A program made the translations under genes and the position numbers. From NCBI GenBank assembly GCA_004294095.1, contig RDZR01000059.1:1-32372 (forward strand): a stretch of 32,372 nt of DNA, given 5' to 3'. The DNA is from Verrucomicrobiota bacterium. Its GTDB lineage: Bacteria > Verrucomicrobiota > Verrucomicrobiia > Verrucomicrobiales > Akkermansiaceae. The notes beneath the pieces were generated by a model. That model saw nothing but the letters and a program-made list of their open reading frames with translations. It was not told the DNA's origin and made no database searches. This document shows positions 5,429-28,000 of the stretch, piece after piece (positions within the stretch are counted from its first letter, which is position 1; each line of letters starts with the position of its first letter).

Positions 5429-8248
5429 ATGAATACACGCTTTGACTTTTCAAGCCGCCACATCGGTCCAAATCAGCACGAAATCTCAAAAATGTTAGAT
5501 TCGGTGGATGAACCAACGCTCGACCATTTGATCGATCTCGCCGTGCCGCAATCCATTCGTCTCGGTCGTGAAATGGAGCTCCCCGCAGCGCGCTCCGAGG
5601 CGGCTGCGCTGGCTTGGCTCAAAGAAATCATGAGTCAAAATCAGGTCCTTAAGTCATGCATTGGCCAAGGATATTACGGCACGCACACGCCTGGGGTGAT
5701 TTTGCGAAACATTTTGGAAAATCCCGGCTGGTATACCGCTTACACACCCTACCAGGCAGAAATCGCCCAAGGCCGCTTGGAGGCGTTGCTCAATTTTCAG
5801 ACGATGGTGACCAATCTAACAGGCCTCGATGTGGCCAATGCTTCACTGCTTGATGAGGGCACTGCTGCGGCGGAAGCGATGAGTCTTGCACTATCGGGAA
5901 AACCAAAGGGAAAGCAGATGTTTGTTTCAGATCGCTGCCATTCGCAGACGATTGAGGTGGTGGTCACTCGCGCAGAGCCGTTAGGCATCGAGGTGGTGGT
6001 GGGTGATTGGGAATCGTATGATCCTCAGGGTGCAGACGGACTTTTCGCGGTGTTGGTGCAATACCCAGACACGCGTGGGCGCATCGATGATTTCACCGAT
6101 TTTTTTGCACGCTGTAAAAAGGCAGGTGCCATCACTATCGTGGCTGCGGATTTATTAGCCCTCACCGTGCTTCGTCCACCGGGTGAGTGGGGTGCGGATA
6201 TTTGTGTGGGATCCTCACAACGTTTTGGAGTGCCGATGGGATTTGGCGGGCCGCATGCTGCCTTCATGTCGTGCGTGGATAGCTTGAAACGGAAAATTCC
6301 CGGCAGACTGATCGGCGTGTCGGTCGATTCGCGCGGCATGCCCGGCTACCGCCTCTCGCTGCAAACGCGCGAGCAGCACATTCGCAGAGACAAGGCGACT
6401 TCTAACATCTGCACGGCGCAAGTTCTGCTCGCAGTGATGGCCTCGATGTATGCCGTTTATCACGGGCCACGAGGTTTGCAGAACATTGCAAATCATTGCC
6501 ACTCGATGGCAAATCAATTGAAAGCATCTCTTGCTGCCGGCGGGATACTCGTGGAAGAAGGTGCATTTTTTGATACGCTCACCTTGCTCGTTCCGGCCAA
6601 GGCAAAAATCTTGTTAGAAAAAGCCGCCGCCGCGGGCATCAATTTACGCCTGATCGATCATGACCACCTTGGCATCAGCGTGGATGAGACGACCACAACG
6701 GAAGATGTGGCGAAATTGGCAGATGTTTTTGCAGTGAAACTTTTAGATGAGGTCGTGACTGAACCATTGGTCCGCGATTCCGAAATTTTACCCCAACCAG
6801 TCTTTCACCAATACCACTCCGAGACGGAAATGCTGCGCTACATTCAGCGCTTGGAGACCAAAGATTTGGCTTTGAATGAATCGATGATCGCACTCGGCTC
6901 ATGCACCATGAAGCTCAATGCGACGTCCGAAATGCTGCCACTCAGTTGGCCGGAAGTTTCATCCATCCATCCATTTGCGCCCGCATCTCAATCTCTTGGC
7001 TATCGCGAGATGCTAACGATGCTAGAAGGTTGGCTGGCGGAAGTGACGGGCTTTGCAGGCGTTTCTTTGCAACCGAATGCAGGCTCTCAAGGCGAATACG
7101 CCGGGCTGTTGGCAATTCGTCGCTACCATTTGGCGCGCGGCGATGAGCATCGCAATGTGTGCCTCATTCCCGTTTCCGCACACGGCACCAATCCTGCCTC
7201 GGCGGTGATGACGGGCATGAAAGTCGTCGGCGTGAAGTGCGATGCCGATGGAAATATCGATGTGGATGATCTCAAAGCACGGGTTGAAGAACATCGTGAA
7301 CATTTATCGACCCTGATGGTTACCTATCCATCGACGCATGGTGTCTTTGAGGAAAGCATCGGCAAGATTTGCGAGATGATTCATCAAGCCGGCGGCCAAG
7401 TTTACATGGATGGTGCAAACATGAATGCCCAAGTTGGCCTCACCAGCCCGGGCTTGATCGGCGCCGATGTCTGCCATCTGAATTTGCATAAAACATTCTG
7501 CATTCCTCACGGCGGCGGCGGCCCGGGAGTGGGCCCGATCGGCGTCGCATCGCAGTTGCTGCCATACCTGCCGGGTCATGCAGATTTAGAATCCACCGCG
7601 GGCGCTGTCTGCTCCGCGCCATGGGGCAGTGCTTCGATTAATACCATTTCTTGGATGTATATCGCGATGATGGGTGCCAGTGGCCTCAAGCAAGCGACGC
7701 AAATTGCGATCCTCAATGCCAATTACATGGCAAAGCGACTGGACCCATTTTTCCCCGTTTTATACAAAGGAAAAAATGGCCTCGTGGCCCACGAGTGCAT
7801 CATCGATGTGCGCCCACTTTCCGATGCCAGCGGAGTGACCGTAGAGGACGTTGCGAAACGCCTGATGGATTATGGTTTCCATGCGCCTACGATGAGCTGG
7901 CCGGTCGGCGGCACACTCATGATCGAGCCCACGGAATCTGAATCCCTCGCAGAAATGGACCGCTTCTGTGATGCGATGATCTCGATTCATAGCGAAATCA
8001 CGGCCATCATGCACGGCAAAATGGATGCGAATGATAACCCACTCAAGCACGCGCCGCACACGGTGGATGTGGTATGCGCAGATGTCTGGGCGCGCTCATA
8101 CTCGCGCGAGACTGCTGCGTTTCCACTGCCCTACCTTCGCGTGCATAAGTTCTGGCCGTCCGTCGGACGCATTGATAACGTGCACGGAGATCGGAATCTG
8201 GTTTGCACATGTGATAGCGTGGAGTCATACGCCACCGCCGGATCATGA
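5429..8248 (+). CDS. gcvP: Glycine dehydrogenase (decarboxylating), P-protein of the glycine cleavage system
   Basis: 939 residues, the single-chain form with both the alpha-like and beta-like halves. The P-protein decarboxylates glycine with pyridoxal phosphate and passes the aminomethyl group to the lipoyl arm of the H-protein. The start [14 protein letters not shown] is typical. The PLP-binding lysine is Lys688 in [16 protein letters not shown]. The N-terminal half has the expected [13 protein letters not shown] and [12 protein letters not shown] stretches. No gcvT or gcvH is visible, so the rest of the system must lie elsewhere. The stop overlaps the start of the Nudix gene as ATGA, indicating coupled translation. 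I looked for a glycine riboswitch in the 159 bases upstream and saw none. Confidence 0.97.
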
Positions 8249-8754
8249 GTCACTCAGATCATCAGCGAGTTGCGTCGATGGATTGGGAATCATGGGAGCC
8301 CAGCATTCGTGCCACATTGATTTTCATCATCCAAGGAAATCAGATTTTGATGATCGAGAAAAAGCGCGGTCTCGGGGCGGGGAAAATCAACGGGCCCGGT
8401 GGCAAAATCGATCCGGGTGAGACCGCTCTGCAAGCGATTATTCGCGAGACTCAAGAAGAGGTCTTAGTCACGCCTCACGATCCGCAAAAAATCGGAGAGC
8501 TTTATTTCTCCATGTCGGATTCTCCAGATATCTTATGCCACGTTTTTCGCGCAGAATCGTATGATGGAATACTCGGCGAAACGGATGAAGCTGTGCCCGT
8601 TTGGTATGATCTCAGCTGCATCCCGTTTGATAAAATGTGGGAGGATGATCGATATTGGCTCCCGCATGTGATCGAAAAACGCACCTTCCAAGGGAAGTTT
8701 ATCTTCGATGGTGAAACGATGTTATGGCATGAAATACAGCTAAATAAAATTTAG
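8245..8754 (+). CDS. Nudix hydrolase, MTH1/8-oxo-dGTPase-like
   Basis: 169 residues. The Nudix box spans residues about 53-75 ([20 protein letters not shown]), with G53, E59, R67, E68, E71 and E72 in the expected places; the late glycine of the box is replaced by Leu74. The preceding [16 protein letters not shown] closely resembles the entry of MTH1 (NUDT1), which hydrolyses oxidised purine nucleoside triphosphates. [21 protein letters not shown] matches the MTH1-type C-terminal region, which carries substrate-pocket residues. Nucleotide-pool sanitation is therefore the likely role. The start is set by the ATGA overlap with gcvP; an internal ATG at 8278 is possible. It is the last gene before a convergent neighbour. 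Confidence 0.9.
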
Positions 8755-8859: not shown

Positions 8860-9465
8860 TTATAAAGATGCTTTCAATGCGTTAAACTTCGTCTCTAGAT
8901 TCTTCAAGGAAGTTTGTGCTTTGGCGATTTCTTGGCTGAGTGCGAGTAGCGATTTCAGCTTGGCCTCAAAGCCAGTTGTCGAGAGCGCCGCGGACGGAGC
9001 TGCAGCCTTGGTATTGGCACGCTTTTCCGGTGACGTAGATAATTCTTGACCGTTTCGCTTACCGAGCCATGACGTTACTGTGATAGGGGAAATGCCATAC
9101 TTTTTAGCTGCGCTGTTTTGTCCACCGCGGCCATGCTCAGCGTTATAATTGGCTACAAATGCTACAACTTCCTGCTTGAACTCGTCTGGGTAGCGGCTGC
9201 TTTTTTGAAGCGCTTGGGTCTTGGTCTTGTTGGATTTGCTGTTTTTGGGGGTCACGACACCAGCGGCATCTAGCCACGCACCTACTGTGATGGGGGAAAT
9301 TTTGAATTTCTCAGACGCTTTGGTTTGGCCACCACGCGTATGTTCATTGTTGTAACTAACTACAAAATCAACGACTTCCTGCTTTTGCTCAGGAGTGTAG
9401 CGAATGCTTTTAGTGACTTGCTTAACTTCTTCGATGATACCTGTTGTTTCTGATTCAATTGACAT
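8860..9465 (-). CDS. Protein with two tandem transposase-type HTH repeats and a C-terminal coiled coil
   Basis: 201 residues from the ATG at 9465 (MSIESETTG). The frame is open to 9519, but that extension (MDVFFDLDCSYS) does not look like part of the protein. Two similar blocks stand at residues about 22-65 (IRYTPEQKQEVVDFV) and 91-134 (SRYPDEFKQEVVAFV). Each continues with a YN-x-EH-x-RGGQ stretch, an Ala/Lys helix and an ISPITV-x-x-WL recognition-helix-like end. This matches the helix-turn-helix at the N-terminus of IS3-type transposase OrfA, but no catalytic domain is present. A Lys-rich linker joins the blocks, and residues about 165-201 form a leucine-heptad helix, likely for dimerisation. 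DNA binding is a reasonable inference; target and role are unknown. Confidence 0.8.
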   Translation of the reverse strand: MSIESETTGIIEEVKQVTKSIRYTPEQKQEVVDFVVSYNNEHTRGGQTKASEKFKISPITVGAWLDAAGVVTPKNSKSNKTKTQALQKSSRYPDEFKQEVVAFVANYNAEHGRGGQNSAAKKYGISPITVTSWLGKRNGQELSTSPEKRANTKAAAPSAALSTTGFEAKLKSLLALSQEIAKAQTSLKNLETKFNALKASL

Positions 9466-9524
9466 TACAAAGACCATATGACATGAATATGAACAATCAA
9501 GATCAAAAAATACATCCATTTGGA

Positions 9525-16611: not shown

Positions 16612-17970
16612 ATGCCGCTCGCAGTGATTAACGTCGTCGGCCTTTCGGCATCTTTGTTAGATGAGCGCATGCCGCGGCTATCTTTCTTTGCCGAGCGGGT
16701 GGGATTGCAATCGTATCGTCCCGAATTTCCAGCGCTCACCTGCAGTGCGCAGGCCTCGATGCTCACGGGCCGCACGCCCGCAGAGCACGGCATTGTCGGC
16801 AATGGTTGGTATGATCGAGAGACGGCCGAGGTGCGATTTTGGAAACAAAGCAACGCCATCATTCACGGCGAAAAAATTTGGGATCATCTGCGAGCAAGCG
16901 TGCCCGGCTTTTCATGTGCGAATTTTTTCTGGTGGTTCAACATGCACTCGACGGTGGATTTTTCGGTGACTCCACGGCCGTTGTATCCGGCAGATGGGCG
17001 GAAAGTTTTTGATGTGCACACGCAGCCGATGGAGCTGCGTGAATCGCTCAAGCAAGATCTCGGGCCATTTCCTTTTCCCCAATTTTGGGGCCCCGCGGCA
17101 GGCATTGCTTCATCGCAGTGGATCGCTCAAGCCGCACGCTGGGTCGATGCCCGCCATGCTCCGATGCTGCAATTGATTTACCTGCCGCACCTCGATTATG
17201 GCCTGCAGCGCGATGGGCCGGATGCCCCACAAATGGTGGCGGAGCTGTCTGCGATCGATCAAACGGCGGGCGATTTGATTGATTACTATGAATCTAGTGG
17301 TTTTGATGTGATGGTGCTCTCGGAGTATGGAATATCCGCCGTTTCCAAGCCGGTGCATCTCAACCGCGCATTTCGCGAAGCTGGCTGGATTCAAATCAAA
17401 CATGAGCTCGGCCGCGAAACGCTCGATGCAGGTGGTAGCCAGGTTTTTGCGATCGCGGATCATCAGGTGGCTCACGTTTATGTGAAGCAGTCATCGATGT
17501 TAGACGCGGTGAAAAAATTGTTAGAAAATTTACTCGGCGTCGAGCGATGCGTGCCAGCGAGTGAAATCTGGGCAGAGGGAATCGGCCGCGAGCGAGCTGG
17601 GGATTTGATTGTGATTGCGGAAAAAGATGCGTGGTTCACCTACTATTTTTGGAATGATGATGCAGTCGCGCCTGACTACGCCCGCACCATCGATATCCAT
17701 CGCAAACCCGGCTATGATCCGTGCGAATTGCATATTGATCCAGCACTCCGCTTTCCTCAATGGCAGATCGGAAGACATCTGTTGAAAAAGAAGATAGGAT
17801 TTCGCTCGCTGTTAGAAGTGATCCCGCTCGATGCCACACTCGTTCGCGGCTCGCATGGCCGCTCAGATGTGCCCGTCGGCGAGCAACCGGTGGTGATCGG
17901 TAGCAAGCACACGATTCGCTGCGCCGCAGATATTTTTGAAGCGATGATTAGGCATGCGTCGCCAGCTTAG
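16612..17970 (+). CDS. Type I phosphodiesterase/nucleotide-pyrophosphatase family protein, EboF-like
   Basis: 452 residues of the alkaline-phosphatase superfamily. Thr43 in FPALTCSAQAS, followed by LTGRTPAEHG, is the expected nucleophile. The central block ANFFWWFNMHSTVDFSVTP plus RPLYPADGRK, and later LPHLDYGLQ and TIDIHRKPGYDP, match from memory the phosphodiesterase of the ebo gene cluster (EboF). That cluster acts in precursor export or metabolism in cyanobacteria and other bacteria. Several usual metal ligands differ: the N-terminal Asp is Asn7 and the usual SDHG reads SEYG (236-239). No other ebo genes are visible. No signal peptide. It is the last gene of the plus-strand run, and its end overlaps the convergent oppF by 23 bases. 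Confidence 0.85.
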   Translation: MPLAVINVVGLSASLLDERMPRLSFFAERVGLQSYRPEFPALTCSAQASMLTGRTPAEHGIVGNGWYDRETAEVRFWKQSNAIIHGEKIWDHLRASVPGFSCANFFWWFNMHSTVDFSVTPRPLYPADGRKVFDVHTQPMELRESLKQDLGPFPFPQFWGPAAGIASSQWIAQAARWVDARHAPMLQLIYLPHLDYGLQRDGPDAPQMVAELSAIDQTAGDLIDYYESSGFDVMVLSEYGISAVSKPVHLNRAFREAGWIQIKHELGRETLDAGGSQVFAIADHQVAHVYVKQSSMLDAVKKLLENLLGVERCVPASEIWAEGIGRERAGDLIVIAEKDAWFTYYFWNDDAVAPDYARTIDIHRKPGYDPCELHIDPALRFPQWQIGRHLLKKKIGFRSLLEVIPLDATLVRGSHGRSDVPVGEQPVVIGSKHTIRCAADIFEAMIRHASPA

Positions 17971-18973
17971 CAGGGGCCGCTAACATTTCAAAATCACTCA
18001 CTGATAGACTGCAAGGATCCGCCGCCACCCAATGGTCGGGTGCAATTTCCTTCAACGATAAATCCATGCCGATGGTTTCCTCGTAGCGCGGATGCCCGAT
18101 GCGGTGGCCAAATGCACTGCCCGCCGGCGGATTGATTGGCGATGGAATATCTCCCTGCAAAATGAGCCGCTTCCCTTCGCGGCGCTGATCCGTCGATGGA
18201 ATCGCGGAGAGCAATGCCTGCGTGTAGCCGTGGCGTGCGTTCTGATAGATCGAGGATGCCTTGGCGAGCTCGACCAATTTTCCCAAATACATCACGGCCA
18301 CTCGGTCACTCACGTGTTTCACCACCGATAAATCGTGGGAGATAAATAGATAGGCGATGCCTAAATCGCGTTGCAGCTCTAACAGAAGATTGATGATTTG
18401 TGATTGAACCGAGACATCGAGTGCCGAGACAGGTTCATCACAAATGATCAGCTTCGGTTCCAAGGCCAAGGCTCGTGCGATGCCGATGCGCTGACGCTGG
18501 CCACCTGAAAATTCAAACGAATAGCGATCGCTCGAGCTGCGCTGCAAGCCGACGCGATCTAACAATTGATGAACTTTTTGAGTCTGCTGCGCACGGTTGC
18601 CGATGCGATGAATAACCAGTGGCTCGGCGATCAAATCTCGCACGCTCATGCGCGGATTGAGCGATTCCGCCGGATCTTGGAAAACCATTTGAAAATCTTT
18701 TCTCAGAGCTCGCAATTTCATCTGGCTCATCATCGTGATGTCAGTTTGCTGAAAGTGGATCGAGCCAGATGTCGGCTTGAGCAAACGAATCAGCGCCTTT
18801 CCCAAAGTCGATTTCCCACATCCAGATTCGCCGACAAGACCCAACGTCTCGCCCGGGGAAATTTCTAACGAAACACCATCGACGGCGTGCACCGCTGCCA
18901 CCGCCCGCTTGATGATGCCACTTTTCACAGGAAAGTGGACGCGTAAGTCAGAGCATTCGAGAATAGGTGTCAT
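17948..18973 (-). CDS. oppF: Peptide ABC transporter ATPase, OppF/DppF type
   Basis: 341 residues. Walker A GESGCGKS (48-55), signature FSGGQRQR (155-162) and Walker B LIICDEP (175-181), with the extended C-terminal region of peptide-transporter ATPases. It should pair with OppD to drive the YejB/YejE permease. The C-terminal region normally carries a cysteine cluster; here the equivalent reads AGSAFGHRIGHPRYEE, and only one late Cys (321) remains, so any Fe-S function is absent. In E. coli the two ATPase halves are fused as YejF; here they are separate genes, each complete. The gene stands 30 bases after the methyltransferase stop rather than next to oppD, because the restriction-modification pair lies between them. 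Expression may now depend on readthrough or on the insert. Confidence 0.93.
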   Translation of the reverse strand: MTPILECSDLRVHFPVKSGIIKRAVAAVHAVDGVSLEISPGETLGLVGESGCGKSTLGKALIRLLKPTSGSIHFQQTDITMMSQMKLRALRKDFQMVFQDPAESLNPRMSVRDLIAEPLVIHRIGNRAQQTQKVHQLLDRVGLQRSSSDRYSFEFSGGQRQRIGIARALALEPKLIICDEPVSALDVSVQSQIINLLLELQRDLGIAYLFISHDLSVVKHVSDRVAVMYLGKLVELAKASSIYQNARHGYTQALLSAIPSTDQRREGKRLILQGDIPSPINPPAGSAFGHRIGHPRYEETIGMDLSLKEIAPDHWVAADPCSLSVSDFEMLAAPAKLATHA

Positions 18974-19002
18974 GCAGTCTAGATCAGAAGGTAGGCTAGG
19001 AA

Positions 19003-20535
19003 TTAGGAGCGGCGCATTGTTCGATATTTCAGTTCTTGCTCCATGAGCAACGACATCTGCGTATCGACACCACTGTCATCTTCGCTGTATGACTGACAAA
19101 TTTTTTGAAGGTTGTCGATTCTACCCAAGACTCGTGCCAATTCCACAATAGACAAGCGGCGCAGGACATCCACAGTGATCGGTCTTTTTGAGTCTGTAAA
19201 AATCAACGAATTCAGAAACGCGGTTGCCACATCCGAAGACAGAAGCTCATAGACAAGCTCTGCTTCCTCTTTGCAGCAGCAAGGAATTGAATAGCATGTG
19301 TCATCGACCATGACAGGGCGACCATCAGTTGGTGCAACCAAAACAAACGAAATCCTCTTGTAGAGTCCAGAAATACAAACCTTCCAAGGAGAAAAAGAAT
19401 AGGAACCAATTCCAAACACGCAGAACCTAGGGCGATTCTGATAAATAGAACTCTTCCTTGCATCCAGAGTGTCTGCGTGCTCCATCAAATAAGCCCACGT
19501 CTTGGGGGCCTTTCTCTTAATCTCTGACGTATTGTCTCCGGTATGTCTTTGGGTGACTAAAACCGACTTGCGGATGGCAATACGACCGTTGCCAAGATCA
19601 GATGACTTAAGCAACGGAAATACATAGTCATCCTCAATATCGGCCTCGTTGCCATACCCGTTAATCAATCGCCCATTCTTTTTGGTGAATTCCATCACTT
19701 TTGAGGCATCGTGTTTAATGCCAGAACGCCAAGTATAAATGGATGACCCTCCATCAAGATGACGATAAGCCTCGTAAGAATCTATGTCTGAAACTAAATC
19801 GCCGTCGATGAAACCTATCCGCGTTTGATTGGATTCAAAATCTAGGGCGGCATGAACAGTGGCCGCGCGATCAGAAATCTTTTTGCCGGTGGTAAAAAAT
19901 AGGCAGGCATCTACTGAAACATCAAATTCAGCTTTCGCATCGATTTTAAACAAATGAGAGTCTTTCCGGCCTCCTTCAGTTTTCCAAAAATGTTTAAGAA
20001 CCTTGCGGGCGGTCATTGTCTTGCAAAGCATGGCAATCGCGCCAGTCGAAGGAAGTGCCTCAATGAGACGAATCAGCATCCATTCTGCGATGTCAAAGTT
20101 CGCTTTACCTGTCCGCGCATCTAGGCCCCTCAAGCCTTGAAAATTCGTTTTCTTTGGAAGATTACTACTTCCGAGCTGGCCTAGATCGGAATTAGTAACC
20201 CAAGGAGGATTACCGATGACAAGAACTCTAGGCTTGTCCGATTTTGACAGATTGGACACCCAATCTTCAGTGAAAAAATCTCGATGATGCACTTCCACAT
20301 TTAATCCTGCTAAGCGGAGACGAGAAGCTTCAACATAATGGTTATTGATCTCGTAGCCCTCGTAGCTTGCAGTTCTATTCCAGTAATTTGCCGCAGCTCC
20401 TAAAAACCCACCGATTCCAGATGTGGGCTCAACTACATAATCGGGATTCTCGAAGAGCTTATCGATGAGGGCGATAGCTCTGATTGCCAAACTATCTGGC
20501 GTCTGAAAGTCCCCGAATTCTTTTTTCTCATTCAT
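19003..20535 (-). CDS. N6-adenine DNA methyltransferase of a type II restriction-modification system
   Basis: 510 residues from the ATG at 20535 (MNEKKEFGDFQTP), fixed by an ATGA overlap with the endonuclease gene. The SAM-binding motif I is VVEPTSGIGGF (34-44), preceded by FGDFQTP as in many N6-adenine methylases; the catalytic motif IV is NPPW (109-112). The remaining roughly 390 residues would hold the target-recognition region; the specificity is not readable. It protects host DNA from the partner nuclease. Sampled lines here are about 40-42% GC against 52-62% in the flanks, and the enriched word TGTTAGA is absent, so the gene looks acquired. It sits between oppD and oppF in the same orientation. 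Confidence 0.88.
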   Translation of the reverse strand: MNEKKEFGDFQTPDSLAIRAIALIDKLFENPDYVVEPTSGIGGFLGAAANYWNRTASYEGYEINNHYVEASRLRLAGLNVEVHHRDFFTEDWVSNLSKSDKPRVLVIGNPPWVTNSDLGQLGSSNLPKKTNFQGLRGLDARTGKANFDIAEWMLIRLIEALPSTGAIAMLCKTMTARKVLKHFWKTEGGRKDSHLFKIDAKAEFDVSVDACLFFTTGKKISDRAATVHAALDFESNQTRIGFIDGDLVSDIDSYEAYRHLDGGSSIYTWRSGIKHDASKVMEFTKKNGRLINGYGNEADIEDDYVFPLLKSSDLGNGRIAIRKSVLVTQRHTGDNTSEIKRKAPKTWAYLMEHADTLDARKSSIYQNRPRFCVFGIGSYSFSPWKVCISGLYKRISFVLVAPTDGRPVMVDDTCYSIPCCCKEEAELVYELLSSDVATAFLNSLIFTDSKRPITVDVLRRLSIVELARVLGRIDNLQKICQSYSEDDSGVDTQMSLLMEQELKYRTMRRS

Positions 20536-21182
20536 AGTGCCTCGATTCCTGGTATCGCACCGGCCTGCTGAATCACACGGCTGTATTGAAGCCGCCATTG
20601 CAAGGCATTGGAAATGGTTAGGTATCCAATATCCGGTGGATTCGCGAGCACCTCTTCTGCCAGTGTCTGCGCCTGAATATCGTCTAGCGGTAGCATTCGC
20701 TCGGCGAAAAATGCCAAAACGTCATCCAAATTGCCATTGTTATCAATGACGCGAGCAAGGCCAGAAGTGGTCTGGAAATCCGCTGTTCGAGTTCGATCTA
20801 CAAAAATAGTGTGGAGAATATTCAATCTGGCTGTTTTGGATGCCTCGTCATCGGTCTTCTCGTAAACGAAAACAAGTAGGTTGTAGCCGAGTCCGTAAAT
20901 CTTTTGCCTAGCAGATTTGAAAGGGCAGGATGACTGAGGCTGGCGAATGCTTGTCACCTTGATATCGACCTCAAGTTTTGGGAAATCGATTCCTTTCGCC
21001 GATGACCCTGCCGCGTAGCGGTATTTGGTGTGCAAATAGGCTTGAAATTTGTGCTCAAGGTATGTCCCGACAGCCTTGCCATCTGTGACACCATATAGCG
21101 ATGGCTCAGGAAATGCGGACTTTCGGGCCGCGAATTTTTGAGCTTCAGCTTTGAGTCTGGATACTGTGAGTGCGCTGGGCAT
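20532..21182 (-). CDS. Putative type II restriction endonuclease, PD-(D/E)XK-like
   Basis: 216 residues. A PD-(D/E)XK-type core is visible: Glu43 in GTYLEHKF, Asp66 in AKGIDFP, then Asp73-x-Lys75 in EVDIKVTS. It is followed by a QPQSSCPF stretch and ARQKIYGLGYNLLVF, whose strand/helix order fits the fold. I cannot give the recognition site. It precedes the methyltransferase in the transcript and overlaps it by 4 bases, the reverse of the order that would safely make the methylase first. No control protein gene is visible. The start at 21182 (MPSALTVSRLKAEAQ) has no Shine-Dalgarno; it follows a region with inverted repeats at 21253-21295. Identification rests on the motif and on the adjacent methylase. 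Confidence 0.78.
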   Translation of the reverse strand: MPSALTVSRLKAEAQKFAARKSAFPEPSLYGVTDGKAVGTYLEHKFQAYLHTKYRYAAGSSAKGIDFPKLEVDIKVTSIRQPQSSCPFKSARQKIYGLGYNLLVFVYEKTDDEASKTARLNILHTIFVDRTRTADFQTTSGLARVIDNNGNLDDVLAFFAERMLPLDDIQAQTLAEEVLANPPDIGYLTISNALQWRLQYSRVIQQAGAIPGIEAL

Positions 21183-21252
21183 AAAAATTTTTCATTGAAC
21201 TTCAAAAAAGCGCCTCAACAACGTGGCATGGGCTGATGTAAGACCTTCTTTT

Positions 21253-21295
21253 TGCTTATTCTAATATGCGAAATGCAGATAAGCATTTTCTGCAT
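21253..21295. promoter_or_regulatory. Interlocked inverted repeats upstream of the endonuclease gene
   Basis: Two 7-base perfect inverted repeats interlock: TGCTTAT (21253-21259) with ATAAGCA (21279-21285), and ATGCAGA (21273-21279) with TCTGCAT (21289-21295). They lie in the 172-base gap between the end of oppD and the endonuclease start. A TAGAAT resembling a -10 element (minus strand, 21258-21263) overlaps the first arm. They may be an operator for the restriction-modification genes or a terminator of the upstream operon. No protein-binding evidence is available. Confidence 0.35.
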
Positions 21296-21354
21296 CAACA
21301 AAACCCCAATGGCGGAGCGCATCAATGATGGAATCTGATTTCTCAGCATATCAG

Positions 21355-22344
21355 TTAGATGGAAAGGTTGCACAGAGGACAATTTTCCACCCAATGGCCT
21401 GGGCGGCACTCGATGAGGCTTGGACGCTCGTTGGGCCGCGGGGGAGTGCGGCCCAAGCGTTGGCAAAATCGGCAGCCATGCGTGTAGTCTTTGAGCGCCG
21501 CGACCATGCCGGGAATCGTCGGCAATATCGACTTCGGTTGCACATCTGGCTTTGGCACGGAGCGCAGTAAACCTTGCGTGTAGGCGTGGCATGGGTTGCT
21601 AAACACATCCCGCACTGGGCCGCGCTCGACCACGCGGCCTGCATACATGACGACGATTTGATCGCAGCTCTCAGCGATCACGCCAAGATCGTGCGTGATC
21701 AGTAGCATGGCCATGTTCGACTCCTGCTTGAGGTTATCTAACAGTTCAAGGATTTGCGCTTGCACCGTCACATCCAGCGCCGTCGTTGGCTCATCAGCGA
21801 TCAATAGTTGAGGACGGCAGGCGATTGCCATCGCAATGACGACCCGCTGCCTCATGCCTCCCGAAAGCTGGTGCGGATAGTCCGCCATGCGCAATGCGGG
21901 GGAGGGGATTTTAACCAAATCTAACAAATGCGTCGCTTGATCCCATGCATCCTTGTTAGAAATTTTCTGATGGATGCGCAACACTTCCGCGACTTGCTTG
22001 CCAATGCGATGGACGGGATTGAGCGCGGCCATCGGTTCTTGGAAAATCACTCCGATTTCTTTGCCGCGCACCTTGCACATGGCATCATGGCTGACATGTG
22101 TTAGATCGCGGCCATTGAACATCACCTGCCCGCCCAAAATCCGGCCGGACGGCTGTGGTAAGAGGCGCACAATCGACATCGCCGTGACACTTTTCCCACA
22201 GCCCGATTCGCCAACGATCCCGACTGTTTGGCCAGCATTCACCGAGAACGAAACGTGATCTACGGCCCGCAGCATGCCGGCATCGGTCTCAAAAGAGGTG
22301 ATGAGCTGATCGACTTCTAACAACGCTTTAGCAGGTGCATTCAT
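21355..22344 (-). CDS. oppD: Peptide ABC transporter ATPase, OppD/DppD type
   Basis: 329 residues. Walker A GESGCGKS (45-52), signature LSGGMRQR (160-167) and Walker B LLIADEP (180-186). The C-terminal extension holds the cysteine-rich patch [10 protein letters not shown] (Cys291, Cys294) plus Cys313, Cys322 and Cys325. This resembles the Fe-S-type region known in DppD-like ATPases. It would pair with OppF. Its start overlaps the end of the yejA gene as ATGA (22341-22344), which fixes the start and indicates coupled translation. The stop TAA sits inside ATCTAACT, a near copy of the enriched word. Downstream lies the restriction-modification insert rather than oppF. Confidence 0.94.
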
Positions 22345-24455
22345 TCAGGATCTGGCTCGGGCGTGTTTGATGCAGGCAGCGTGCGAAATTGATCATACAA
22401 TTTCATCACTTCGGGAAATTTTTTACCGCTGCGCCGTGCGGCGAGGGTTTCTTGTTTGATTGAATCATCCACCCAAAAAACAAACGATTCGTGGGGATCA
22501 AATACCACTGCGGGGCTGAATTGAGTGAACTCAGAATCTGGCCATCGCACCCAACGCCAAGAACCCACACGGACGAAATCCACCGAGTAGCCTGGTGCGA
22601 AAAATCCTTCCTCGTGCATGATGTTTTGCAACGCCTTGCTCGCTTGGGCAAGCTCTTCGGTGCTGGTGGCCGTGCGGACTTTTTCACTGAGTGCATCCGT
22701 ATCTTTGCGGCTCCAAACGAAAATATTGTTGGTGTGAGGTTTGACGTTGCCCTTGGCATCGTAGGCATTGGTTGAGTGAAGAAACTGATAGAAATCCGGA
22801 GTCGGCGGACCGATCAGCCAGCTCGATAGCGTCATTTCATGTTGTTTGAGCATAACTTTTTTATAGACCACCGTGTCTTCTTGAGCATCGAGCCGGAGAT
22901 CGAATCCGCAGGCGAGTGCTTCTTCGCGGAGGATGGAAAATAAACTATCGAGCAATGGCATTGATGGATAGGTGACGGAAACGGAGAGGCGCGTGCCATC
23001 CGGTTTTTCTAAAATGCCATCGCGCCCCGGCACGGTGAAACCTGCTTCAGTAAAATATTGCCGCGCCTTTTCGATCGAATACGGCCGAGCCACAATCGAA
23101 GGATCGCTAAACAACGCGTAACCTTCGTTGAAGGCGTTGAGCCGCTGATAGTCGCCGCGGAACATCACCTGGATCACTTTTTCCCAGTTCATGGCGTGAT
23201 GGATGCCCACTCTCACCAAGCGATCATTCAAGGGGGCTTTGCTCACGTTCATGTAAAGTCCGCGCGGGATTTTCGGATAACGATTGAAAAAAGTGACTCG
23301 CTCGATGTAGCCATCAAAGATCGGCTCCACTTCAGATTTTTCATACCAAAGCTCCGGCCTGGTGAGCATCGCGGTATCCAGCTCGCCCACGCGAAAAAGC
23401 TCAAATGCCTTCGAGTCATCCCGCACCACCGTGTGCACCAATTGATCTGGATTAAAACGGTATTTGTAGTATTTGCGATCTTTCGCCCACCAATTTTTCA
23501 CTCGGCTTTGGGTGATAGAAACACCTTTGACAATGCCATCCGGCAGCAATTCGTATGCGCCGGTGGTCGGTGGAAATCGCCATTGGTATCTCTCTGAATA
23601 ATCGGGCCCATATTCTTGATAGAATCCTTCATGCGAGGGATTCAGTCCGCCCGCCAGCAAAGGCGCGTAAATTTGTGCTTCGGGCAGCGAGACGGAGAGT
23701 GTGGACTCATCGTAAATGGCAACTTGAGCGACATTTTCGCGGAAGTATTGCTTGGTGAAGGGATTGTTGACGTGATCCGAAACTCGCACATAAACAAAGC
23801 GCAAATAATCGATCGCGCGCACGCGGCTGCCGTCCGAATACGTCGCTTCAGGATCGATCTTAAAGTAAATCGTCCGGCCATCCGGCGATGTGGCCCAACG
23901 CGATGCGACGCCTGGAATTAACTGCATCGTGTCCGGATGCAAGGTAACGAGTGGCATCTCGATCGAGTCATACAAATCACCGCGGAAGGAATGATTCGAG
24001 TTTTCTCCAAATGGCCGAATCGTTGGCGGAAAAGCAGAAATCGCGCGGCGGAAGCTGCCACCTTTTTTGGCCTTGGGATCACCAATCTCCGGCTGATCCA
24101 TGCCGTCTTGCCACGCTAAATCAATCGGCAAATCGGCGGGCGTTGCGATCCTTAAAAAATCACCCAATCCAAGTCGGAATTCCCATTTCGATTGATTTTG
24201 GCGCAAGCCGGAAAGCGTGGTTTCTAGCGCTTCTTTGGATGGATCTGGCGCGCTTTCGAGTTCTTTCGTGGTCGCCTCAATTTCAGCGGCGGTTGATTTT
24301 TGTTGATCGAGCAACCATTCGCGGATGTAGCGGTTATACATCGGGATAAATCCCTGCAAATCGGCGGTTTTTTGCGCAGGCGGCTCAGAGCGCTCGCAGC
24401 CGGTGATGACCAGCGCGATGCAGCATGCCATGATGAATGAATGGAAAGTTCTCAT
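22341..24455 (-). CDS. yejA: Peptide-binding lipoprotein, YejA-like (solute-binding family 5)
   Basis: 704 residues. The leader MRTFHSFIMACCIALVITGC has a good lipobox (V-I-T-G-C) with Cys20 lipidated. About 100 residues of extra, Gln/Glu-rich N-terminal sequence come before the family 5 solute-binding domain, which begins near PKAKKGGSFRRA. The YejA-type landmarks GGSFRRA, GRTIYFKIDPEATYSDG and PTPDFYQFLHSTNAYD are present. It would capture peptides and hand them to the YejB/YejE permease. In E. coli and alphaproteobacteria this branch handles microcin C and murein peptides; the substrate here is inferred only. It is unusually placed after the two permease genes. It overlaps yejE by one base (TAATG) and oppD by four. 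Confidence 0.93.
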   Translation of the reverse strand: MRTFHSFIMACCIALVITGCERSEPPAQKTADLQGFIPMYNRYIREWLLDQQKSTAAEIEATTKELESAPDPSKEALETTLSGLRQNQSKWEFRLGLGDFLRIATPADLPIDLAWQDGMDQPEIGDPKAKKGGSFRRAISAFPPTIRPFGENSNHSFRGDLYDSIEMPLVTLHPDTMQLIPGVASRWATSPDGRTIYFKIDPEATYSDGSRVRAIDYLRFVYVRVSDHVNNPFTKQYFRENVAQVAIYDESTLSVSLPEAQIYAPLLAGGLNPSHEGFYQEYGPDYSERYQWRFPPTTGAYELLPDGIVKGVSITQSRVKNWWAKDRKYYKYRFNPDQLVHTVVRDDSKAFELFRVGELDTAMLTRPELWYEKSEVEPIFDGYIERVTFFNRYPKIPRGLYMNVSKAPLNDRLVRVGIHHAMNWEKVIQVMFRGDYQRLNAFNEGYALFSDPSIVARPYSIEKARQYFTEAGFTVPGRDGILEKPDGTRLSVSVTYPSMPLLDSLFSILREEALACGFDLRLDAQEDTVVYKKVMLKQHEMTLSSWLIGPPTPDFYQFLHSTNAYDAKGNVKPHTNNIFVWSRKDTDALSEKVRTATSTEELAQASKALQNIMHEEGFFAPGYSVDFVRVGSWRWVRWPDSEFTQFSPAVVFDPHESFVFWVDDSIKQETLAARRSGKKFPEVMKLYDQFRTLPASNTPEPDPE

Positions 24456-26032
24456 TACCGATAGTAGCTGAACTTTTTAGGATCGAACGCTTCTCTAACA
24501 GCCTCGCCGATGAAGGTGAATAAAACTAACAGACAGACGAGCACGAAGAACGCGGATGTCACCAACCACGGCGCGGAAAGATTGGCCAAGCCATCATTTA
24601 ACAAACGGCCCCACGTGGCGTATGAAGGCGGCAAGCCGAAGCCAAGGTAGTCCAGCGAGGTCAGCGCAAAGACCAATCCTGATAGAGAAAATGGGATCAG
24701 CGTGACAATGATCGAGAGCGAATTGGGAATCAGATGCAAAAACAAAATCCGTGGAGTGCTGGCTCCCAAAACGCGCGCCGCGGCGATGTAGTCGCGTTGT
24801 TTATCGCGGTAGGCGGACGCACGCATCAGGTAGGTCATCTCCATCCAGCCAAATGCCATCAGAATGGTTAGAATGATTGGCAGACCTTTATACGCATCCG
24901 GAACCATGCTCGCCAAAATGATCACCACAAATAAGACGGGCACGTTGGTGAGAATTTCCATCAAGCGTTGGCTGATCAAATCAAACCAACCACCGTAAAA
25001 TCCCATCAACATGCCGACAGTAATCCCTATCAGATAGACAAGCGGCATGTAAATGATCGCCGCCTTGAAATTCACCTGCAAGCCGCCGTAGAGGTAGGCC
25101 ACTAAGTCGAAGCCCTGAGAGGTGGTGCCGAGCAAGTGGCCTTCTTTGGGCATCGGCGGTGCCGGATGGTAGAAAATTTTTCTCAACTCGCTCGCTGGCG
25201 TGGAGAGGTAATTTTCTTTGCTGCCCAACCCGGTGTAATGATCGTGCTTGAGAAATCCTTTTTCGTATTCTGCTAGATAAACTGGCGTGCCATTTTCATC
25301 CCATCCTTCCGCCGGACCATTGGCCAAGCCGTTGCGATACGTGGTGCGAATGTGCATTTTCGCTTCATTCACATTGAGGTAAGTCGCCGCGAGGCCAAAG
25401 AACCGCTTTTTCCCGCCACTCTCATAGACGATGCCGTTGCGTTGTTCCAAAGCGCCAGACATCGGCGGCAATGTGTCACCCGTTGGATCATATGGGATGA
25501 GCGGCATGATCACACGCTTGTCTTTTTGGTTGGCCCACAAGCGTTTGAGCATCCGATAGTCAGCCTGCGCATCGCCAGTGGCATCCTTAATTCCAAAGTC
25601 CCGATTGAATAAATCGGTGCTCAAAAATGCGGGGAAAATCCATTTGCCATCGTGATGCACGGCCAAGGCACGCTTGCCAACGACGACTTGATCCAGCGCC
25701 GCGAGCACCAACAATGAAACCACAATCCAGAGCGCATAGTATCCCCGGCGGATGCTACAAAATCGTTTGATCCGGTTGCGCGTGATTGGATTGATGCGAT
25801 TCCGCTGGAACGAACGAATCAATAATAAAAGCCCAGTGCCTAACAGCAGCGCCACAGCTAACCAACCAAACCACAAAAAAGGTTCGCCTTTTTCCACCGG
25901 CATTTGCAGCCAAGACATTTCCCGGCTCACCGAGAAAAACCAACGGGCCGTGGGAAAGGCGATATCCTTCCACTCGCCGAACCACGCGAGAAGACCTAAC
26001 AGAATGCTGCTGATGCCGAGAGTGCGCGTCAT
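24455..26032 (-). CDS. yejE: Peptide ABC transporter permease, YejE-like, with an enlarged periplasmic loop
   Basis: 525 residues, against about 340 for E. coli YejE. RRGYYALWIVVSLLVL (95-110) followed by an HHDGKWIFPAFL stretch is the YejE entry motif. The core permease is residues about 305-525, with the coupling loop YIAAARVLGAS, then SLDYLGFGLP and FIGEAVREAFDP as in YejE. Two additional hydrophobic segments lie in the first 90 residues. Between about 120 and 300 the loop is longer than in YejE and contains a stretch like a MORN/YwqK repeat (TYRNGLANGPAEGWDENG, about 231-248). It overlaps yejB by four bases (ATGA) and yejA by one. Confidence 0.93.
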   Translation of the reverse strand: MTRTLGISSILLGLLAWFGEWKDIAFPTARWFFSVSREMSWLQMPVEKGEPFLWFGWLAVALLLGTGLLLLIRSFQRNRINPITRNRIKRFCSIRRGYYALWIVVSLLVLAALDQVVVGKRALAVHHDGKWIFPAFLSTDLFNRDFGIKDATGDAQADYRMLKRLWANQKDKRVIMPLIPYDPTGDTLPPMSGALEQRNGIVYESGGKKRFFGLAATYLNVNEAKMHIRTTYRNGLANGPAEGWDENGTPVYLAEYEKGFLKHDHYTGLGSKENYLSTPASELRKIFYHPAPPMPKEGHLLGTTSQGFDLVAYLYGGLQVNFKAAIIYMPLVYLIGITVGMLMGFYGGWFDLISQRLMEILTNVPVLFVVIILASMVPDAYKGLPIILTILMAFGWMEMTYLMRASAYRDKQRDYIAAARVLGASTPRILFLHLIPNSLSIIVTLIPFSLSGLVFALTSLDYLGFGLPPSYATWGRLLNDGLANLSAPWLVTSAFFVLVCLLVLFTFIGEAVREAFDPKKFSYYR

Positions 26033-27378
26033 GAATCGTATTTCACTCGGGGATCGACGATGGCCAACGCGATGTCGGAAAGAATTTGGCCAATCAACAT
26101 CAGAAACGCGCCGATGACCAAAGTGCCCATGATCACCGGCACATCGCGCTCAATCACCGCCTGATATTGCAGCAAACCAAAACCTTGGATGTCAAAAACT
26201 CGCTCGACCAGCATCGAGCCGCCCATGAAAACGCTGATGAGCCCACCGATGCCAGCGGCCAGCGGAATCATCGAATTGCGCAACGCATGGCCGACCACCG
26301 CGCGGCGGTATGAGGCACCCTTGGCAACGGCCGTGCGCACATAATCGCTCGCCAGATGGTCCATTAAATTATTTTTCGTCATCATCGTCATCATCGCAAA
26401 CGAGCCGACCAAATAACAGATCAGCGGCAGCACCGTATGATGCGCTAAGTCCAAGATTTTTTCGCCAAAATCCATGCTATTGAAATCAGGACTCGTGACT
26501 CCGAACAGTGGAAACCAACCGAGCCTCGCGCCCAAATGCACTAACAGAATTGCGCCTAAGGCAAATCCGGGCACCGAGTAGCCGATGAAAATCAAAATGG
26601 AACTCGCGCTATCAAACCACGAACGATGCCGCAGCGCTTTGATAATTCCTAACGGAATGCAAATCAGATAGGTAATCAATGCGGTGAGGATTCCAAAATA
26701 CGTCGCTACCGGCACGCGGCTGATAATCATTTCCCAAACAGAATCCTGATAGACCATCGAGTTGCCCAAGTTCCCTTGCAAAAGCCCTGAAAATTGCTGC
26801 CGGTAAACAATCGCACGCGGGCTGTAATTCGGCGGCTTGCTGTCATTTCCGTTGCGAGTGATAAAACGATCTTTGCGCTCCGCAGCGGATTCGAAGCGCA
26901 CTTTCCAACCCTCATCGCGCACGTCGTTTCCGCCATCCACGTATTTTGCGGAAACGATTTCAGCCCCATTGCGCACCACGCGCACTGCGCGCCCGCTGCC
27001 GCGCAGCACCGCATTGGCCGTTGTTTCCGGATCCAGATCATCGCCGATTGTGTCTGCCTCCCGAGCGCCGAATTCCGCCTTCGAGCGGTTCGCCTCTCGT
27101 GGGAAAATGCCTAACCATTGGCAGTAGGCCACGAGCATCGGCTTATCCATGCCATATTGTTCTTCGAGTGCTTCGATTTGATCTTCACTGAGCCCGGCTT
27201 GATTGTTTTTTTGGGTTGATGACGCTTTGCCTCCTTGATCCGCACCGAGCGACATTTGTTGCAGCATCCGCTCCATCGGCCCACCGGGCGCGAAACGTGT
27301 GATGGCAAAAACAAGCAACGTGATCCCGATCATCGTCGGCGGAATCAGTAATAGGCGGCGGATTAAATAATTCCTCAC
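26029..27378 (-). CDS. yejB: Peptide ABC transporter permease, YejB-like, with an extra periplasmic insert
   Basis: About 449 residues from a GTG at 27378 (VRNYLIRRLLLIPPT). The frame is open to an ATG at 27429, but that would add a charged tail before the first membrane helix and overlap the divergent gene. TM1 (about 7-27) is followed by FAPGGPMERM, as in YejB. Roughly residues 92-194 are an insert not present in E. coli YejB, hydrophilic and beta-rich in character. The core resumes at LLQGNLGNSMVYQDSVWEMI and carries the coupling loop RTAVAKGASYRRAVVGHALRN and the ends GSMLVERVFDIQGFG and ALAIVDPRVKYDS. It is the first gene of the operon. Both permeases have enlarged loops in the same place, after TM1-type helices. 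Confidence 0.92.
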   Translation of the reverse strand: MRNYLIRRLLLIPPTMIGITLLVFAITRFAPGGPMERMLQQMSLGADQGGKASSTQKNNQAGLSEDQIEALEEQYGMDKPMLVAYCQWLGIFPREANRSKAEFGAREADTIGDDLDPETTANAVLRGSGRAVRVVRNGAEIVSAKYVDGGNDVRDEGWKVRFESAAERKDRFITRNGNDSKPPNYSPRAIVYRQQFSGLLQGNLGNSMVYQDSVWEMIISRVPVATYFGILTALITYLICIPLGIIKALRHRSWFDSASSILIFIGYSVPGFALGAILLVHLGARLGWFPLFGVTSPDFNSMDFGEKILDLAHHTVLPLICYLVGSFAMMTMMTKNNLMDHLASDYVRTAVAKGASYRRAVVGHALRNSMIPLAAGIGGLISVFMGGSMLVERVFDIQGFGLLQYQAVIERDVPVIMGTLVIGAFLMLIGQILSDIALAIVDPRVKYDS

Positions 27379-27415
27379 AAAAAGATGTTTTGATTTCAGC
27401 TTGTGATCTCCAGCG

Positions 27416-28000
27416 ATGCAAGCCCACAAGATGTCTCACCTTCACTCTTGCCAGCCGCACGCCAAAGCATTTGACTCGCCAACCAAAATAAATTTTCCAG
27501 TGAAAGCCCACGAACTTTACTCCGCAGTTGATCCGTCCGTTGTTACAACCATGCTTGATTGGTTTCGCACCAATGATCGCAAAGTTTACAAATCAGCGGT
27601 CTCCACCTTGGCTGCGAATCGTAAGCTGCGCCCCGTTTTTGTTGAGAAAAAATCCACCGCAGAGCAATACGCGTGGATTCTCAAAACGCTCAAAATCCCA
27701 GCCTGCGATACCATCGGCGAGCACATGATCCAAGCCTACCTGATGGCTGGACAGCAATCGATGCTCGCAATGTTTTGCGATGGCCTTGGCATTCCTCACG
27801 ATGGCAAAGGCTCGGTGATTGGCGAGTTGCCCAAGGCGCTGGATGCAGAGCGACTCACTACCACGATTGATCGTCTGTTAGATATTTTCGAGCCTAAACT
27901 TTTCGCGACCTATCTTCATTGTTTCAACATGCAAGTTCCTAACGGATGGCCAGAACTCACCGAAAAACTTGCGTCTGATGAACGCCTGAAACTTGCCTAA
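27416..28000 (+). CDS. Conserved hypothetical protein, helical
   Basis: 194 residues from an ATG at 27416; a second ATG at 27431 (MSHLHS) and a GTG at 27499 (VKAHELYSAV) are other start options. The last is the most likely real start by composition, because the first 25-30 residues look like leader-like filler. The body is mainly helical: DPSVVTTMLDWFRTNDR, AEQYAWILKTLKIPACD, EHMIQAYLMAGQQSMLAMF, then GKGSVIGELP and IDRLLDIFEPKLFATYLHCF. No catalytic motif, signal peptide or membrane segment is visible. I recall similar proteins in Verrucomicrobiota without a known function. The stop TAA is part of CCTAACA, and a second TCTAACA lies just after it, 14 bases before miaB. It is probably co-transcribed with miaB (gap 23 bases). 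Confidence 0.8.
   Translation: MQAHKMSHLHSCQPHAKAFDSPTKINFPVKAHELYSAVDPSVVTTMLDWFRTNDRKVYKSAVSTLAANRKLRPVFVEKKSTAEQYAWILKTLKIPACDTIGEHMIQAYLMAGQQSMLAMFCDGLGIPHDGKGSVIGELPKALDAERLTTTIDRLLDIFEPKLFATYLHCFNMQVPNGWPELTEKLASDERLKLA

Follow-up and report, generated by a model that had tools for sequence, protein, structure and literature searches.

The DNA analysed here probably carries a complete type II restriction-modification (R-M) cassette that was gained horizontally, inserted in the sense direction between the oppD-type and oppF-type genes of a peptide-importer operon, and is mostly transcribed as a passenger of that operon. In sequence terms, the cassette belongs to the family defined by NF052465 / PDLC03454 for the endonuclease (R) together with PDLC03310 for the methyltransferase (M), and the importer operon appears otherwise intact. 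The window, by which we mean the whole stretch of DNA that was analysed, comprises 32,372 nucleotides and corresponds to one whole contig (1-32372) of a 3.0-Mb genome assembled in 113 contigs.

On the minus strand, the ORF list and the domain matches give the order yejB-yejE-yejA-oppD-R-M-oppF. The operon contains two permease genes, of the yejB type (26029..27429; BPD_transp_1, 2.6e-34) and the yejE type (24455..26032; BPD_transp_1, 1.8e-27), followed by a gene for a yejA-type solute-binding protein (22341..24455; SBP_bac_5, 9e-39), these three names being taken from the earlier note, and by an oppD-type ABC ATPase gene (21355..22344), assigned by domain and family matches, whose product ends in NLSI, while many relatives end in YQP or similar. 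The last importer gene, an oppF-type ABC ATPase (17948..18973; ABC_tran, 2e-36; oligo_HPY, 8e-9; best NCBIfam model OppF PRK15079 at 2.8e-111, with a score under that model's cut-off), is displaced by an insert of 2381 bp that runs from the oppD stop to the oppF start (18974-21354). The ORF coordinates confirm that the importer genes overlap by 1-4 bases (4 for yejB/yejE, 1 for yejE/yejA and 4 for yejA/oppD) and that oppF is split from oppD by the R-M genes, as had been described before.

R and M are the sole ORFs with family support in the insert, and both read as intact genes, separate and adjacent, as type II restriction-modification requires. Downstream of oppD, and likewise on the minus strand, an AT-rich spacer of 172 bp (21183..21354; 39% GC) precedes R, which encodes a 216-aa type II restriction endonuclease (20532..21182). 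The R stop and the M start overlap by four bases, ATGA (20532..20535), and M, encoding a 510-aa DNA methyltransferase (19003..20535), is followed by a 29-bp spacer between its stop and the oppF start (18974..19002). A longer in-frame start for M exists at 20598, while the inner start at 20535 matches the overlap of the closest homologs.

The assignment of R is carried by NF052465, which it matches over the full length of the model (residues 5-213 against positions 1-209 of 209) at 2.7e-105 and 350.1 bits, above the curated cut-off of 290, and by the PADLOC model PDLC03454 REase_II (5.3e-97), with no difference from this family in sequence terms. With a limit of E = 1, Pfam assigned no family to R, and the PDB contained no convincing sequence relatives, nor was EcoRI among its sequence matches. 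An alignment of 59 rows, including the window, has 48 invariant columns, among them D66, D73 and K75, a D..D-x-K pattern that suits PD-(D/E)XK. Compared by fold, the AF2 model (pLDDT 90.4) came closest to NlaIV (Z 9.2, rmsd 3.2, 124 aligned), followed by MvaI, EcoRV, HincII, SwaI, MutH and BcnI at Z 7.7-7.1. As best Z values of 7-8 are commonplace and the Foldseek matches are weak (best E 0.19, to MutH; none below 0.001), a PD-(D/E)XK fold for the modelled R is likely but not proved.

M matches the PADLOC model PDLC03310 MTase_II over nearly the whole protein (2.4e-149), and a profile search connects its N-terminal part to M.BseCI (1.2e-12). The motifs EPTSGIGGF and NPPW are present; in an alignment of 54 rows, E36, P37, G40, N109, P111 and W112 are invariant, the window reading NPPW. 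The order of an AdoMet motif, then NPPW, then a further domain is the layout of N6-adenine methyltransferases such as M.TaqI and M.BseCI. The fold of the AF2 model (pLDDT 87.6) matched M.BseCI (Foldseek E 9.4e-23, TMq 0.63), CamA, MmeI and M.TaqI, all of which we take to be adenine-specific, in part from their structure titles, and on the strength of this fold M would be of the N6-adenine type. M and M.BseCI (PDB 7qw5 to 7qw8) are alike in fold over most of their length, but at 16% identity in the fold alignment the recognition site of M is not inferable from that of M.BseCI.

The insert occupies a junction that is empty elsewhere in the genus. OppF orthologs occur in 65 of the 73 genus genomes, our own included, and among the 64 relatives the junction was measured in 60, leaving out three without oppD in the stretch compared (L026, L118 and L124) and one at a contig edge (G011). 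None of the 60 has R-M genes there, and the uninterrupted oppD-oppF junction for which the earlier note had looked to close relatives is what they present: the gap is at most 50 bp in 52, the two genes often overlapping, and 71-497 bp in the other eight. Outside the genus, 17 genomes of the order were taken and 12 measured, with a gap of at most 50 bp in 11 and of 458 bp in one; L167, L169 and L171 were left out for having no oppD, L168 for being too short and L165 for a senseless value. Among 386 order genomes sampled, R was found in three, our own included, and M was found in three of 99 genomes, namely our own, G037 and, as a weak partial match, G019. OppF of the window is about 65-73% identical to that of its genus relatives, and the insertion sits on a long terminal branch.

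The closest pair known to us from the search is L034, which is G037 (KLAP133), from another family of the same order (R 80% and M 75% identical; L032 and L174 are contained in L034). Homologous loci were taken as the best 80 of at least 544 relatives of R, and a tree of 68 rows, from which 13 of the 80 loci had been dropped for short or missing proteins, places the window with L034, then with three Nitrospirota bins and one Latescibacterota bin, with L071 and a clade formed by five other Verrucomicrobiota placed elsewhere. The transfer suggested by the earlier note is supported by the empty junctions, the rarity of R in the order, the atypical composition and this cross-phylum tree, which together argue, at the level of sequence, that the pair arrived by horizontal transfer and split an operon that had been contiguous. 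Under the opposite account, the R-M pair would be ancestral at oppD-oppF, the rest of the genus having lost it, as the related pair in another family of the order might suggest; but the 5.3-kb contig of L034 holds no opp gene (only 248 bp lie upstream of R), every measured junction of the genus lacks the pair, the tree mixes phyla and the composition is atypical, so that this account, which already appears to conflict with the distribution, is highly improbable. The assembly, from which rather than from reads the case is judged, consists of many contigs, and a chimera or a contaminating fragment joined into this one could imitate an insertion; since both joins are intergenic, leaving oppD and oppF whole, and homologous pairs are nested similarly in other assemblies, we regard this as unlikely in the extreme.

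The junction also has other occupants. By eye, the oppD-oppF junctions of L008, L010, L012, L015, L022, L123 and L134 contain arrays of GAACATC/GATGTTC-type repeats with inverted arms, those of L115 and L117 contain such repeats in one direction only, and those of L135 and L143 contain variants. In L012 the array encloses an ORF that Pfam assigns to the 23S rRNA-intervening-sequence proteins (2.6e-11). These arrays indicate that a second kind of element, unrelated to R-M, has also entered oppD-oppF.

Composition sets the insert apart from its surroundings, with a GC content of 46.0% against 52.8% in the rest of the window and of 43.6-47.8% along its core in 500-bp windows. A GC content below that of the flanks had thus been seen correctly, while the previous figure of 40-42%, read from sampled lines, was too low for the insert as a whole. 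In codon usage, which the earlier note had named as a check together with GC, R and M are the most atypical of the 25 ORFs of the window (distances of 1.246 and 1.271), two others following closely at 1.235 and 1.216. A gene with a high codon-usage distance adjoins a low-GC stretch elsewhere in the window (8245-8754, plus strand, and 8860-9519, minus strand) that matches the candidate defence protein PDC-S07 (2.6e-10).

The word TGTTAGA/TCTAACA, present in 45 copies in the window, is absent from the insert, as had been noticed, where about 3.6 copies are expected (Poisson P ~0.03). The caution attached to this absence as weak evidence was apt, since the window has two further word-free gaps, of 2991 bp and 3382 bp. 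Genome-wide, the two orientations amount to 1642+1671 = 3313 copies, compared with 141+133 = 274 for the reversed control. The word is non-palindromic and evenly spread over both strands, with window copies at, for example, 18558, 21737 and 21920, and across the 73 genus genomes it ranges from an excess (G068, 1696 vs 247) to a deficit (G063, 30 vs 136). Its density resembles that of known DNA uptake words; by this analogy TCTAACA may be uptake-sequence-like and, if it marks natural transformation, would offer one entry route for the pair. Our literature search found no paper joining uptake sequence, Verrucomicrobiota and natural transformation.

The borders of the insert bear no trace of a vehicle. 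No mobility gene was found within it and no repeats flank it, and a target duplication, another feature proposed for inspection, was rejected, as the best border alignment (10.5) was equalled by 135 of 1000 shuffles and the longest word common to both borders (5 bp) was matched in 295 of 300. According to the accessible part of PMC3031569, R-M systems occur on mobile elements, and operons are named among their settings, so that a composite transposon, an integron cassette or a phage island might have brought the pair. Relatives of R were found in 10 of 72,556 plasmid records, in 1 of 50,697 phage records and in nine viral-contig loci, the family appearing, by sequence, widespread and mainly chromosomal and rare on such records. 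Given the lack of a mobility gene and of border repeats, and a 172-bp spacer of which no second copy was found in the genome, a mobile vehicle already appears disfavoured and we hold it to be very unlikely. The mobile R-M insertions of Nobusato 2000 and Furuta 2010, as cited in the accessible parts of PMC3031569 and PMC12707154, share with the present case the horizontal insertion of R-M genes, but were accompanied by a target duplication or an IS, whereas here neither is found and the insertion runs from gene to gene.

The endonuclease-first order, considered unusual in the earlier note, is the rule in this family: among the best 80 of at least 544 homologous loci, R precedes M in all 78 that show M, the contigs of the other two ending 5 and 209 bp past R, and the ATGA overlap recurs in seven of these loci, including the six closest. 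R also precedes M in the two-gene operons of EcoRI and Eco29I, for which the accessible text of PMC3874152 describes a two-gene message with upstream and internal promoters, the latter a separate M promoter inside R. What differs here is the nesting of the pair in a host operon, and no conserved M promoter is apparent within R.

The other means of control postulated in the earlier note did not emerge from ORF, Rfam, sigma-70, RNA-structure and synonymous-site scans; control of another kind may exist. For a C-protein controller, no separate supported ORF of at least 80 aa exists in 18974-21354. A structured RNA or attenuator in the spacer was rejected, its RNA structure not being unusual (z -0.16 and -0.21) and Rfam giving no match. 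No sigma-70-like promoter was found in 18800-21500, against a shuffle mean of 3.3, by a consensus that may not fit the phylum. For a conserved M promoter inside R, no synonymous-site constraint was detected, the pooled fourfold-site identity of 70 pairs being 0.36-0.43 along R and 0.37-0.45 along M; the window-L034 pair alone gave 0.50 for R and 0.34 for M, which was not repeated in the pooled pairs. DNA similarity between the window and L034 begins 19 bp into R and reaches nearly to the end of M, and the spacer has no similarity to the 248 bp upstream of R in L034, revealing no upstream control common to both. Short inverted repeats can be made out in the spacer by eye.

These data bear on a second account, possible but rather doubtful in our view, by which the R-M pair is a self-contained unit driven from a promoter of its own in the spacer, or with M expressed from inside R as in EcoRI, and its operon position has no functional meaning. 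The AT-rich spacer with its inverted repeats, offering room for a promoter that the sigma-70 consensus scan would miss, and the upstream and internal promoters of EcoRI and Eco29I speak for such a unit and count against transcription as a passenger. The empty promoter scan, a spacer that the closest relative does not share and the lack of synonymous constraint in R speak against it.

Related cassettes provide further evidence on both sides. By mechanical ORF calls, 63 of the best 80 of at least 544 loci have a neighbour on both sides; within 300 bp on each side, R-M is in sense with its neighbours in 31, antisense to co-directional neighbours in 11 and in a mixed setting in 15, the neighbours of six lying further off. 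With the RNase G/kdsD loci counted once, 27 sense cases face 11 antisense ones (binomial 0.014 against 1:1), the value being 0.039, 0.093 and 0.028 at limits of 120, 200 and 500 bp. As ordinary flanking ORFs give 119 sense and 37 antisense, the R-M genes are seated as natively as other genes, not more. The 11 antisense loci favour a self-contained unit over a passenger, as do the 43 of 63 loci with a called neighbour, on one side or both, over 120 bp away, by which tight sense nesting is not universal. Conversely, the upstream gap is 4-30 bp in L086, L062, L073, L081, L090, L079 and L071, again by mechanical ORF calls, which leaves scant space for a promoter in the gap in several loci.

Empty sites are stronger evidence for nesting than these orientation counts. 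Operon nesting, with host genes contiguous in relatives and in the same orientation, was seen at the window, in L086, in the L073 group and in L108, the host genes being named, in part tentatively, from Pfam domains. In L086, arranged hisC-R-M-hisB, the gaps measure 4 and 13 bp; in 24 of 24 relatives the hisC-hisB gap is -8 to 172 bp (17 within 11 bp) and R is absent, six further relatives falling outside this count. In the L073 group, of several Planctomycetota, the order is RNase G-R-M-kdsD. For this site 37 genomes gave a match, and 30 loci were compared, of which 20 are empty, five have M, including L073, and five are not scorable; R is 78-94% identical to that of L073 in the four further loci, and four of the five belong to one supported clade. 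L108 carries R-M between the permease and the ATPase of an ABC-importer operon, and its 30 loci comprise its own, 16 in which the two genes are adjacent (L264, with a senseless gap, being discounted), six with other DNA of 456-737 bp and seven without an upstream permease; in two close relatives permease and ATPase overlap by 4 bp. In two of the six with other DNA, L240 and L251, the ORF at this junction matches the HicA toxin (Pfam 1e-9 and 2.7e-10), and a further small ORF beside it, without a Pfam match in L240, could be an antitoxin.

Other sense nestings, by domain, involve Asn_synthase/glycosyltransferase (L062), an enoyl reductase (L079) and a queuosine enzyme (L105), and neighbours of the defence type, Cap15 (L099) and an HNH nuclease (L098), occur too; several of the 30 neighbouring proteins scanned have no Pfam match. 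No third conserved gene accompanies R-M, the RNase G/kdsD cluster of five loci being the only tight recurrent flank set, while other recurrent flank groups, of 3-5 loci each, are scattered in position. Many of the homologous loci are from fragmentary metagenome bins. With related cassettes nested alike in unrelated bacteria, the present one looks like an instance of a recurring pattern.

Both genes are under purifying selection between the window and L034, with dN 0.12 and dS 1.0 for R and dN 0.17 and dS 2.4 for M. For R, dN/dS averages 0.095 over 12 close pairs, for M 0.152; R has the lower value in 11 of these pairs, which are not independent, the exception being L043/L051. R identity exceeds M identity in 2274 of 2278 pairs, from loci picked by R similarity, which favours slow R. 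In the loci L034-L113, a sample picked in this way, the endonuclease is the more constrained of the two genes. The accessible part of PMC4176335 reports the reverse trend over all R-M types, R being less conserved than M; a slower R runs counter to this published general trend and is open to test on all homologs.

Taken together, a functional R-M passenger transcribed with the host operon is the best reading and remains a prediction from sequence. Transcription of the importer operon would carry the R-M genes along, R would be translated first and M next by way of the stop/start overlap, and this coupling is proposed to yield the two products in a roughly fixed ratio. R is predicted to cut unmethylated target sites and M, as an adenine methylase, to protect them. 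Post-segregational killing is a general property of type II R-M systems and may make loss of the cassette costly, and its place between useful genes would make clean loss harder.

The usual picture of an R-M system is that of a mobile or defence-island unit that is self-contained and controls its own timing. More tentatively, the whole family might be a specialised, operon-nesting addiction cassette, consisting of just two genes, in many cases lacking their own promoter, that insert repeatedly and in sense into housekeeping operons (for peptide and other ABC importers, histidine and RNase G/kdsD). There they would rely on transcription by the host to set the R:M ratio, tie their loss to that of useful genes and last long, with R as the more constrained partner; junctions of this type can also take a toxin-antitoxin gene (HicA) in place of R-M. 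Among papers on R-M systems or addiction modules in host operons, searched at the level of titles and abstracts (including PMC2997769, with most subscription papers beyond reach), nothing was found on the NF052465/PDLC03454 family or on repeated nesting of one family. Our findings raise the question of how a cassette with the endonuclease in front and no delay circuit in evidence establishes itself. If the addiction-cassette reading is true, the finding of one family nested separately in four operons, with the sites empty in relatives, would offer a testable case of an addiction module whose regulation is left to the host.
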